From contig NC_019697.1 of the NCBI RefSeq assembly GCF_000317145.1, positions 5,530,886 through 5,594,885 of the forward strand: a DNA stretch of 64,000 bases, read 5' to 3'. The DNA comes from Chamaesiphon minutus PCC 6605. GTDB taxonomy: Bacteria > Cyanobacteriota > Cyanobacteriia > Cyanobacteriales > Chamaesiphonaceae. Below, in pieces: positions 38,203 through 41,423 of the stretch. How positions within the stretch are numbered: the first letter of the stretch is position 1; every line of letters begins with the position of its first letter. A model generated the notes under the pieces. The model made no database searches. It saw nothing but the letters and a program-made list of their open reading frames with translations, and had not been told where the DNA came from. The translations under genes and the position numbers were made by a program.

Positions 38203-39042
38203 CTAAAGCCTAATCCCTAGCAGTTTGAGAGTCATCGGGCCGACATCGCCATCCGCAGCCAATCCTTGCTTGAGTTGAAACTTAATGACAGCCGCCTTCG
38301 TTTTGTCGTCGAAAACGCCATTGATGGGCACAGAGAAACCGACATTGGTCAAGTGCTGCTGAATCCGCGTTACAACGGCTCCATTATCGCCCAGACGAAA
38401 CACGCTGACTACTGAAAAGCCCCGGATCGGGCACCGATCCATTTTCGCGGCGGTTTGGTCGCCAAAGTTACCATCTACAGTCATTCGATCTGTGGGATTG
38501 TAGCGATTCCACAGGCTCTGAAAAGCTTTCACTCCCAAGGTACTGATATCATCCCGTCCGTTAGTATTAAAAAAATGTACCGGATCGTTACCGCCAAGCC
38601 ATTGCCAACCATTAGCCAACAGATAGGTTTTCCAAGCATTATAGTTATTAACATCGATCGCCAGACCATCTTCATGGTTGCTATTTCCAGGCTTGGCGGC
38701 TAATGGAATTAATTTGGGATCTCGCTGATAAACACGGTAGAGAATGTGCTGTTGGGCAACAGTCCGAAAAGCTGAATTAATTGTCATTCTCAGACTGGGT
38801 TGCTGGGCGATCCCCGATCGCAGTGCGGCTCGCAAAGCTTCTCTGGCTCCAGCTTGCAGATAGAGATTGAGATGAGCTTCGCCAGAAGAGTTAATTCCTG
38901 GTAGGCTCTCAAAGTTAACTAAAATACCAGTCTGCAAGGTATTCATTTGGGCGATAATTTGCCGACTCAAGCCGCTAACGCGTCCGGTTTCGACATTACG
39001 CTCTCGAATCATCGCCTCGATCGCTTCTTTAACTGTAGTCAT
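38203..39042 (-). CDS. M15-type D,D-carboxypeptidase-like protein with peptidoglycan-binding domain
   Basis: 279 residues. The N-terminal 160 match a VanY-like M15 peptidase: Arg93 in INSAFRTVAQ, zinc ligands His123 and Asp130 in SNHEDGLAIDV, and His156 in DPVHFF. A short linker with a possible second PG-binding remnant precedes a PG_binding_1 domain (about 215-277, LGDNGAVVTRIQQHL to GPMTLKLLGI). No signal peptide is visible at the ATG start, odd for a cell-wall enzyme. It might be released by lysis, exported another way, or phage-derived (endolysin-like). Confidence 0.83.
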   Translation of the reverse strand: MTTVKEAIEAMIRERNVETGRVSGLSRQIIAQMNTLQTGILVNFESLPGINSSGEAHLNLYLQAGAREALRAALRSGIAQQPSLRMTINSAFRTVAQQHILYRVYQRDPKLIPLAAKPGNSNHEDGLAIDVNNYNAWKTYLLANGWQWLGGNDPVHFFNTNGRDDISTLGVKAFQSLWNRYNPTDRMTVDGNFGDQTAAKMDRCPIRGFSVVSVFRLGDNGAVVTRIQQHLTNVGFSVPINGVFDDKTKAAVIKFQLKQGLAADGDVGPMTLKLLGIRL

Positions 39043-39140
39043 ATCGCTAAGGGAATGGGTAATGGGTGATGGGTAGGTAGTCCCGACAACTTAATCCTGT
39101 CAATCCTCAAATCCCAATGAAAATTATTAACTTTGTGCGT

Positions 39141-39243
39141 TTCGTCCCGATGGCATTGTGGGAAGTATGGATATAGGAGTGGTAGATGCACCCTGATTAT
39201 TCGTCCCTAACTTGCCTTGTAGTAAGTTGGGGCTTTTTATTAT
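39141..39243 (+). ncRNA. Putative small RNA unit, copy 1 of 3
   Basis: First of three tandem 103-bp units. It begins TTCGTCCCGATGGC and holds the core GGAGTGGTAGATGCACCCTG. It ends in a terminator: CCCTAACTT (39205-39213) pairs with AAGTTGGGG (39224-39232), with one T-G wobble and a 10-base loop, then CTTTTTATTATT. Nothing protein-like is conserved among the copies. A nine-codon frame (ATG at 39168, MDIGVVDAP) exists in copies 1 and 2 only. Confidence 0.6.
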
Positions 39244-39261
39244 TTAGTAGATTACTTTAAA

Positions 39262-39364
39262 TTCGTCCCGATGGCATTGTGGGAAGTATGGATATAGGAG
39301 TGGTAGATGCACCCTGATTATTCGTCCCTGACTTGCCTTGTAGTAAGTTGGGGCTTTTTATTAT
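39262..39364 (+). ncRNA. Putative small RNA unit, copy 2 of 3
   Basis: Nearly identical to copy 1 and starting 121 bp after it. The stem here is CCCTGACTT with AAGTTGGGG; the A-to-G change turns an A-U pair into a G-U pair, so pairing survives. A T-rich tail CTTTTTATTA follows. An 18-bp unrelated AT-rich spacer (39244-39261) separates the copies and might hold a promoter. Confidence 0.6.
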
Positions 39365-39390
39365 GAAGGCTCTAGCAAATTAATTTCAAA

Positions 39391-39493
39391 TTCGTCCCGA
39401 TAATGCGGTGGGGAGTGCGGATATAGAAGTGGTAGATGCACCCTGATTATTCGTCCCGAACTTATCTTATGGTAAGTTGGGACTTTTTATTAT
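39391..39493 (+). ncRNA. Putative small RNA unit, copy 3 of 3 (diverged)
   Basis: The 5' part differs (GATAATGCGGTGGGGAGTGCGG), but the block GTGGTAGATGCACCCTGATT followed by ATTCGTCCC is fully kept. The stem reads AACTTA/TAAGTT, lengthened by a new A-T pair, plus CCC/GGG across a bulged G, then CTTTTTATTA. It overlaps the last codons and the stop of the convergent membrane-protein gene (39462). Confidence 0.58.
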
Positions 39494-41423
39494 CCATAGA
39501 AGCTGGCGAGAATTGATAAATTCGCAATCGATCGTTCTCATAATAAATTGCCTGGAGATCGGGATGGTAGCGACGGTAAGTTTCGCACAATTGTAACATT
39601 GCTGTCGCGAGTTGCGTGCGTCCGCTGGGCGATCGATAATTACGATAGGTCGGATCGATCAGGACTGAATAGGGGACTGGATACTCTGGCTTATCAGAGA
39701 TAAAGGGACGCTTTTCGACAAAGACCAAAAGTGTAGTTTGATGTGGAAATACGAAGCTAGCGGCGGTAACTCGATCGCGATATCGGGCGGTAAATTGAGC
39801 TGCATCTTCATACCAGCCGCGACCATAGACTTGAGACAATTGTTCGATTGGCGCGACGACAGTCCATTGATGGTGGGGAAATAGATATCCGATCTCTACT
39901 GCTTTGCGGGCGGCGGCATCGTATTCGAGATAATCGATTTGGGGCGATGGTGGCAAACAAAAATTGAGCGTAATTGCCAGAAAAACGGTTAAACAGATCG
40001 GTACCGACCAATTAGCCAATAATAATCTCCCGGCTGAAGCGATCGCGATAAATAGCAATCCGACTAGCAAGCTCAAACCGATCGGAAGCGTCGTTAAGAT
40101 CCCCGTCAGCATCGCAAAGCCGCTAGTTGGAATGGCTGCTAATACGCCCAAAATCAGCCAACCCATACTCAAGGTAAATAAGGCCATTTGTCGCCCAAAA
40201 ATGCCACCAAACCACCCAAATAAAATTAAAATCGGCAGAGTAGGATCGAGAGCTAGAGCCAGAAAGGTGCAGCAACTAGTATTAACGATCGTGGCGGTTC
40301 GCTGTGAAGATCCGATAATCTGCGTGCTGCAACCGATCGCCAGGATGACAAACAGCGCGCTCAGTTCTGACTCACTTGCCGCCCACGATCGGATCAAACC
40401 CAGATCGAGCGCGTCCCGCAGCGTCCCCAGGCATTGACGAACGCCCAGTGGTAGCCGACTGGAAATTGGTAAATTCCAGGTAAACAGATAAGCTCCTAGA
40501 CTATAGCTAGTTGCCAATGCCGCCGCACCATTTTTGGTCAGACAGCGCATCGTATAACCGATACCCAGCACTAGCAAAGTGCCAATAATCGCCCCCAATA
40601 TCTGGACGACTTGGAGTGGATGCACTCCGCTCAAAGCGGTGAGAAAGGCCGCCAAGCTAGGAAAAATCGGCAAGTAGTTAATTTGGGGTAAGTCTCTTGC
40701 CAATATCTGTTGGACGACCAGCAATCGACCGTAGGTATCGGGATAAGTGAATCGAAACTCGACGATCGGATGCTCGAATCGCAGCCATAAGGAGAGCGCG
40801 CCGATCGACAGCATGACGATCGCTGTCAAAAATAGTGATGGTAAGCTAGAGCCAGAGTGATGACCAACCCGATCCGATTTGCGATCTTGTCGCTCGAAGG
40901 TATTTGGATCGCTCGATCGCAACCGCTCTTGGGGCACAACGGCTCGACTCGAAATTCGCACCCTGCTAGTCGGGACCACCCGGTGTTGTGCTTCGATTAG
41001 CAGCCGAGATTGGATTAACCGCTCGATGGCTCGCCACGGAGACAGCAACCACCGCGACAGTTGTGGCAACGATAACCCGCGATCGAAAATATCGATCGTC
41101 GAAAGTGCGATTTGTTGACCGAGCTGTTGAAATTTGCCGCGATACTGCCACCGATCGCTAGCAATCCAACCGATGCCCAAACCAGTCAGATAACACAATA
41201 CCGCTGTTATCCACGTAAATAAACCTAACTTTGTCCACAATATCCCGCCAATGGCGATTGTCGCAGTCGTCCGCGCAAAAGCTCCCACGATGCGACTAGC
41301 CAATGAGGGGATCGATACCTGCCGAAATGCCAACAGCGGTAACAAGCCAAATAGAATGATAAATACTAGTACCACCCACCCACTGGTGAGAAGATCGAGG
41401 ATGAGGGATGGTTGACTGAACAC
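39462..41423 (-). CDS. Large polytopic membrane protein, possible GT-C type glycosyltransferase
   Basis: 653 residues with about 12 hydrophobic helices. A basic soluble stretch (about 140-195) separates the first three or four helices from the rest, and a C-terminal soluble domain of about 150 residues follows (VVAPIEQLSQVYGRGWYEDA). The block RFTYPDTYGRLLVVQQIL after a helix resembles the first loop of GT-C enzymes, but I see no definite catalytic DE motif. The GTG start lies at 41423. The last ten or so residues (DNKKSQLTIR) are encoded by RNA-like copy 3. Confidence 0.62.
   Translation of the reverse strand: MFSQPSLILDLLTSGWVVLVFIILFGLLPLLAFRQVSIPSLASRIVGAFARTTATIAIGGILWTKLGLFTWITAVLCYLTGLGIGWIASDRWQYRGKFQQLGQQIALSTIDIFDRGLSLPQLSRWLLSPWRAIERLIQSRLLIEAQHRVVPTSRVRISSRAVVPQERLRSSDPNTFERQDRKSDRVGHHSGSSLPSLFLTAIVMLSIGALSLWLRFEHPIVEFRFTYPDTYGRLLVVQQILARDLPQINYLPIFPSLAAFLTALSGVHPLQVVQILGAIIGTLLVLGIGYTMRCLTKNGAAALATSYSLGAYLFTWNLPISSRLPLGVRQCLGTLRDALDLGLIRSWAASESELSALFVILAIGCSTQIIGSSQRTATIVNTSCCTFLALALDPTLPILILFGWFGGIFGRQMALFTLSMGWLILGVLAAIPTSGFAMLTGILTTLPIGLSLLVGLLFIAIASAGRLLLANWSVPICLTVFLAITLNFCLPPSPQIDYLEYDAAARKAVEIGYLFPHHQWTVVAPIEQLSQVYGRGWYEDAAQFTARYRDRVTAASFVFPHQTTLLVFVEKRPFISDKPEYPVPYSVLIDPTYRNYRSPSGRTQLATAMLQLCETYRRYHPDLQAIYYENDRLRIYQFSPASMDNKKSQLTIR

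Follow-up and report, generated by a model that had tools for sequence, protein, structure and literature searches.

A tandem array of NsiR1 small RNAs in the unicellular cyanobacterium Chamaesiphon minutus that seems uncoupled from its known circuit

The small RNA NsiR1 of Nostoc sp. PCC 7120, reportedly the subject of Ionescu et al. in 2010, is regarded as HetR-dependent and as marking heterocyst fate at an early stage; nitrogen limitation induces it in a heterocyst-specific manner. Parts of two papers describe NsiR1 in Nostoc as dependent on HetR, encoded in twelve copies next to hetF, and antisense to the hetF leader, and state that it pairs across the start codon of the hetP-like gene alr3234, which it thereby represses (PMC9045159, PMC8406250). 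The DIF1 element, TCCGGA, is placed at -35 of NsiR1 and other promoters in sections of two reports (PMC6133370, PMC7377430), and an excerpt of another reports GGGn5CCC as a requirement for HetR binding (PMC4192349). The NsiR1-like RNA162 of Limnospira indica PCC 8005 is a case of NsiR1 in a cyanobacterium without heterocysts, and the array described here resembles it in that respect; Limnospira, however, has a hetR-patS locus according to part of the same paper (PMC8400943), whereas HetR was not found in the genomes that we searched of Chamaesiphon, a unicellular cyanobacterium described in part of PMC5856356 as dividing asymmetrically.

We analyzed a 64,000-nucleotide stretch, here called the window, of the Chamaesiphon minutus PCC 6605 genome (three contigs with a total of 6,761,765 bases, of which the first contig has 6,284,095). 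A repeat search of the window returned one repeat family of three 103-nt units, at 39141-39243, 39262-39364, and 39391-39493, with identities of 100, 99, and 84% for copies 1, 2, and 3, respectively. These are exactly the three tandem units that the original prediction had located, and the sequence of the units bore out the invariant core and ATTCGTCCC that it had described. All three units match the Rfam model of NsiR1 (RF02399) at full length and above its curated cut-off of 39, on the plus strand: copy 1 at 39180..39240 (model positions 1-60, 56.7 bits), copy 2 at 39301..39361 (55.0 bits), and copy 3 at 39430..39490 (52.1 bits). The E-values of these matches for the whole window, 1.6e-8 to 2.2e-7, make chance a poor explanation. 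No further NsiR1 match was found elsewhere in the genome among the 150 of 1072 first-look candidates that were scored. The units are, with near certainty, three tandem NsiR1 copies in Chamaesiphon, and this is a known RNA family with a member in an unexpected setting.

The original prediction had taken the units for an undescribed small-RNA family with transcripts of about 100 nt. It was right that the units are tandem small RNAs that share a conserved core and end in terminators of their own, and its suggestion that the core is the target-binding part is plausible. The "undescribed" part was in error: nothing favors it, and the RF02399 matches above the gathering score in all three units leave it a vanishingly small chance of being right. 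The length was also wrong, because the 5' third of each unit (its first 39 bases) is the putative promoter, so that the transcript placed by the model is about 61 nt. Within the library of papers searched, none names both NsiR1 and Chamaesiphon; a record of the RNA in this genus may exist elsewhere.

A hairpin terminator is present in each unit, as had been claimed, at 39205..39232 in copy 1, where it is followed by CTTTTTATTA, at 39326..39353 in copy 2, and at 39453..39483 in copy 3 (all on the plus strand). The first two were recovered both by folding and by a terminator scan, which found 5 sites with a hairpin and T-run versus 0.6 expected in shuffles; the third was missed by the scan and is seen by folding, in which copy 3 scores best (-18.9 kcal/mol, z of -3.3, with z values of -2.2 and -1.7 for copies 1 and 2). 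Tandem copies with individual terminators, a trait by which membership in the family was judged, are therefore present, in copy 3 by folding only. The two stem changes said to preserve pairing, A-U to G-U in copy 2 and an extra pair in copy 3, are both there. Among 17 Chamaesiphon copies, 98.3% of the pair cells are paired, a share that 0 of 500 shuffles reach and that compares with at most 55.5% in slid controls. Eight cells, in two pairs of the terminator stem, are changed on both sides (A-U to G-C in five copies and C-G to U-A in three), and 0 of 500 shuffles reach eight such cells, but two doubly changed pairs are no more than expected, since 259 of 500 shuffles have as many. The covariation on which the prediction had staked itself thus beats the shuffles in paired share and in doubly changed cells and fails to do so in the number of pairs; it is real but modest.

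Each RNA is preceded by a DIF1-like TCCCGA, one mismatch from TCCGGA, at 39145..39150 in copy 1, 39266..39271 in copy 2, and 39395..39400 in copy 3 (plus strand), in every case 35 bases before the RNA; judged by sequence, this is the expected offset in all three window copies. For a wider promoter survey, 262 distinct copies with the core pattern were collected from sampled loci. Among 227 copies from 54 of the 77 genomes with both HetR and HetZ, 217 match DIF1 when up to one mismatch is allowed, 175 of them exactly (TCCGGA). The 23 copies read from nine Chamaesiphonaceae genomes include 22 with DIF1 at the expected offset with at most one mismatch, 2 of which are exact, and the commonest variants are TCCCGA (12 copies) and TCCTGA (6 copies); the core-intact copy of genome G392 (genomes and loci are cited by our own handles) lies too close to a contig end and is outside this count. 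Since TCCYGAT is frequent in filamentous genomes too, the change from TCCGGA in Chamaesiphonaceae is no proof of rewiring, and the idea that TCCYGA marks loss of HetR was dropped because the same variant occurs in Calothrix, Leptolyngbya, and others (at least 118 stretches). Each copy would probably be an independent gene, with TCCCGA at -35 of a DIF1-type promoter and a terminated transcript of about 61 nt, the use of the promoter being inferred. We also observed that TTCGTCCC occurs twice per unit, in the promoter (39141-39148 in unit 1) and at the foot of the terminator stem (39200-39207), and likewise in units 2 and 3.

The survey revealed a second promoter class. GGGn5CCC, which resembles the HetR box, is carried by 11 of the 18 copies without DIF1 and by 0 of the 244 copies with it. 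All 11 belong to a subtype reading AGTAGATGCACCCTGATG, of which one further copy, in G095, is without the box. They come from G002, G066, G207, G298, G118, G058, and G083, with four more in G229, and the loci concerned are L116, L119, L404, and L405 (G229), L389-L392, L384, L096, and L097. None of the 23 Chamaesiphonaceae copies read has this box.

In its core, size, terminator, tandem copies each with a DIF1-like motif ahead of the RNA, and divergent gene beside the array, the locus is like that of Nostoc sp. PCC 7120; it differs in having three copies rather than 12, TCCCGA instead of TCCGGA, and vanY instead of hetF as its neighbor. A further difference is that HetR, HetF, and HetP were not found in Chamaesiphonaceae, which we searched in 11 genomes; several are drafts, and 7 reach at least 90% completeness with no more than 5% contamination. 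NsiR1 itself is present in 10 of these 11 genomes, in two genera, with 26 matches, and no copy was found in G388. The core GGTAGATGCACCCTGAT is identical in all 24 aligned copies; the other 2 of the 26 matches, left out of the alignment, are low-scoring truncated copies in G392 (31.4 bits) and G393 (29.9 bits) with an altered core, GATGCATCCTGAC.

A profile search that recovered the control, G008, found HetR in 0 of the 11 family genomes, that of the window included, so the HetR dependence of Nostoc NsiR1, a regulatory trait outside the sequence definition of RF02399, has no HetR match to support it here. HetF scored above 500 bits in 0 of the 11 genomes and in all 10 tested genomes that carry both HetR and HetZ; this line is our own choice, and 3 of 30 searched genomes pass the curated cut-off of 1200. 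A different CHAT protein, with 141 to 158 bits in the HetF search, is present in 11 of 11. The profile search for HetP also found it in 0 of 11, and HetP is missing as well from 5 of the 10 tested genomes with HetR and HetZ (G002, G008, G011, G286, and G211), so its absence alone is not notable. At these thresholds, the known targets of the RNA, hetF and the hetP-like alr3234, were not found in the family.

In a sample of 386 cyanobacterial genomes, NsiR1 was counted only above the RF02399 cut-off because E. coli gives a match below it. The original prediction would have been refuted had this strain stood alone, and it does not: 80 of the 386 genomes have NsiR1, and 79 have HetR. HetR is present in 77 of the 80 NsiR1 genomes versus 2 of the other 306, and HetZ or a HetZ-related protein in 79 of 80 versus 0 of 306, a count that leaves out 14 genomes with a weak match only. 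The genomes are related, so these counts are not independent, and among NsiR1 genomes HetZ is ahead of HetR by a small margin only. NsiR1 occurs without HetR in G000 (the window genome), G229, and G308, and HetR occurs with NsiR1 below the cut-off only in G058 and G083. G229 (Oscillatoriaceae M33_DOE_052), considered as a second HetR-less case, is doubted: 4 of the 8 copies read there (from 11 matches) have GGGn5CCC, so that hetR is probably missing from this metagenome assembly and HetR is probably present in the organism. The edge of HetZ therefore rests on G000 on one side and on G058 and G083 on the other. The latter two (L096, L097) have HetR and no HetZ-group protein, and the sole NsiR1-like match of each has a HetR-box-like site, not DIF1. 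G095 (L098, 1501-1555) and six congeneric genomes have a single NsiR1-like match per genome, below the cut-off; the one copy of that genus that was read, from G095, keeps the core intact and has neither DIF1 nor the HetR box. Searches of G095 and these six congeners found no HetR, and G095 has only HetZ-related protein 2.

HetZ proper was not found in the 11 Chamaesiphonaceae genomes. Nine of them encode a HetZ-related protein (in G000 at C1:5374334-5375431) scoring 550 to 565 bits, under the model cut-off of 612, and the two examples scanned score higher with the HetZ-related than with the HetZ model. A tree set all nine apart from two HetZ proteins with full support and gave no firm placement by the HetZ-related ones. 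The array shares its motif position with the DIF1 promoters that part of PMC7377430 places under HetZ, and it differs from them in that Chamaesiphon shows only a HetZ-related paralogue. G390 and G391, both drafts, had no HetZ-related match, yet NsiR1 is present in both. It is quite possible, if somewhat doubtful, that transcription would depend on another factor that reads DIF1, for which the HetZ-related protein of 9 of the 11 genomes is the best candidate. HetZ-related protein 2 is encoded 3 kb before the window (L272, 6833-8026) and has a weak sigma-70-like match to TIGR02937. That HetZ is a sigma factor was left as an idea, since this match (5.8e-7) and that of HetZ to Sigma70_r4_2 (1.4e-4) are both below cut-off and a PDB profile search was unconvincing.

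Divergent from the array is a vanY-like gene (38203..39042, minus strand) whose product has VanY D-Ala-D-Ala carboxypeptidase and peptidoglycan-binding domains (Pfam PF02557, PF01471). A divergent vanY lies beside the array in seven Chamaesiphon genomes, namely, the window's own, G386, G387, G389, G390, G391, and G392, in the last of which (CAN_BIN19 Chamaesiphon) it was recognized by its first 60 codons at 68% identity; two copies in G389 are away from vanY, and those of G394 and G395 show other neighbors. By analogy with NsiR1 on alr3234, the RNA would, somewhat more probably than not, repress mRNAs whose translation start regions pair with its core, GAUGCACCCUGAU. The vanY mRNAs of G387 and G392 carry the exact complement of GATGCACCCT up to the start codon, and the predicted duplexes of the core with the vanY starts of G387 (-23.4 kcal/mol), G392 (-20.9 kcal/mol), and G389 (-17.3 kcal/mol) are the strongest of 204 ORF starts, for which the mean is -9.5 with a standard deviation of 3.1 and the next start is at -16.6 kcal/mol. 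These 204 are mechanical first ORF starts in stretches of eight genomes, the vanY of G389 itself among them. No core complement is found at the vanY start in the window species, G386, G390, or G391 (ranks 155, 133, 116, and 200 of 204), and a copy that has since decayed may have left the site in G387 and G392 as its remnant. Because the site is unremarkable in four species and could be such a remnant, vanY is counted as one candidate only, a doubtful one that has a start-region site in some species and for which the RNA of C. minutus would be at most antisense to the 5' leader. That leader holds, at 39043-39080, a low-complexity stretch with GGGTAATGGGTGATGGG, and in G390 the corresponding position is taken by a CCATCTCC repeat. 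The hetF starts were also tried as a trans site for the core and set aside: duplexes were -7.1 to -16.3 kcal/mol with no background set, the conserved GTG was scored in 6 of 11 genomes, and the value of -35 for G027 is the antisense NsiR1 gene itself.

The neighboring genes allow a different account, in which the copies matter purely as cis-antisense RNAs, to the vanY leader in the manner of NsiR1.1 at hetF in Nostoc and, for copy 3, to the 3' end of a convergent 653-amino-acid ORF without a Pfam match (39462..41423, minus strand), whose stop codon lies inside copy 3 and whose 3' end is antisense to it. The aligned part of the homologous gene in C. polymorphus (G386, L105) also ends within the adjoining copy. 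The divergent arrangement in the seven Chamaesiphon genomes agrees with this account and parallels that of hetF: of the 11 genomes in which HetF exceeds 500 bits, 7 have hetF next to NsiR1 and divergent from it (G284, G382, G068, G062, G027, G008, and G229). A leader running through copies 1 and 2 could start from a sigma-70-like site at 39389-39360 on the minus strand, but such matches are within chance (2 found, 1.4 expected), and a purely antisense role would not explain why copies away from vanY (G389 C74 and C29, G394 C160, and G395 C60) have an identical core. We consider this account rather unlikely.

Still less probable is that the array is a relic, its function gone, in which NsiR1 has survived by inertia after loss of a heterocyst-type circuit. 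The regulator and known targets were not found in the family, G388 shows no copy, and the truncated copies of G392 and G393 have changed cores, all as decay would have it; against this, the other 24 copies of the family do not differ in their core, double changes leave the terminator stem intact, the promoter motif is at its offset in 22 of the 23 copies read, and the RNA is retained in 10 of 11 genomes of two genera. That a HetR too divergent to detect still drives the array is highly improbable. Sub-threshold stretches of 12 to 15.5 bits do occur in G391, G387, and G394, but these are far below the cut-off of 27; G000 is without any match even at an E-value of 10, the same model gives a best match of at least 214.9 bits in each of the 79 positive genomes, and the GGGn5CCC box is lacking from the 23 family copies read.

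We therefore favor, as a likely overall explanation, an NsiR1 array that works without its known circuit, from DIF1-type promoters and through pairing of its core with mRNA starts. Within this explanation, it is very probable that NsiR1 would work without HetR, HetZ proper, HetF, and HetP, none of which was found in Chamaesiphonaceae. Judged from the genome sequences, NsiR1 seems uncoupled in Chamaesiphon from its known circuit, and its retention where the master switch and both known targets were not found suggests that in this budding unicellular organism it has another, undiscovered job. More speculatively, and on balance improbably, NsiR1 may not be a heterocyst RNA at root: an older module of a HetZ-family protein, DIF1 promoters, and NsiR1 would control cell-wall and division genes, and Chamaesiphon would have kept it after losing HetR, HetF, and HetP and would employ it when budding asymmetrically, the VanY peptidase being among the targets. 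The persistence of NsiR1, with its core unchanged, in a unicellular lineage where HetR and both known targets were not found separates this RNA from the heterocyst circuit. It makes Chamaesiphon a simpler organism in which to ask what protein recognizes DIF1 promoters and which binding partner the core has been selected for.
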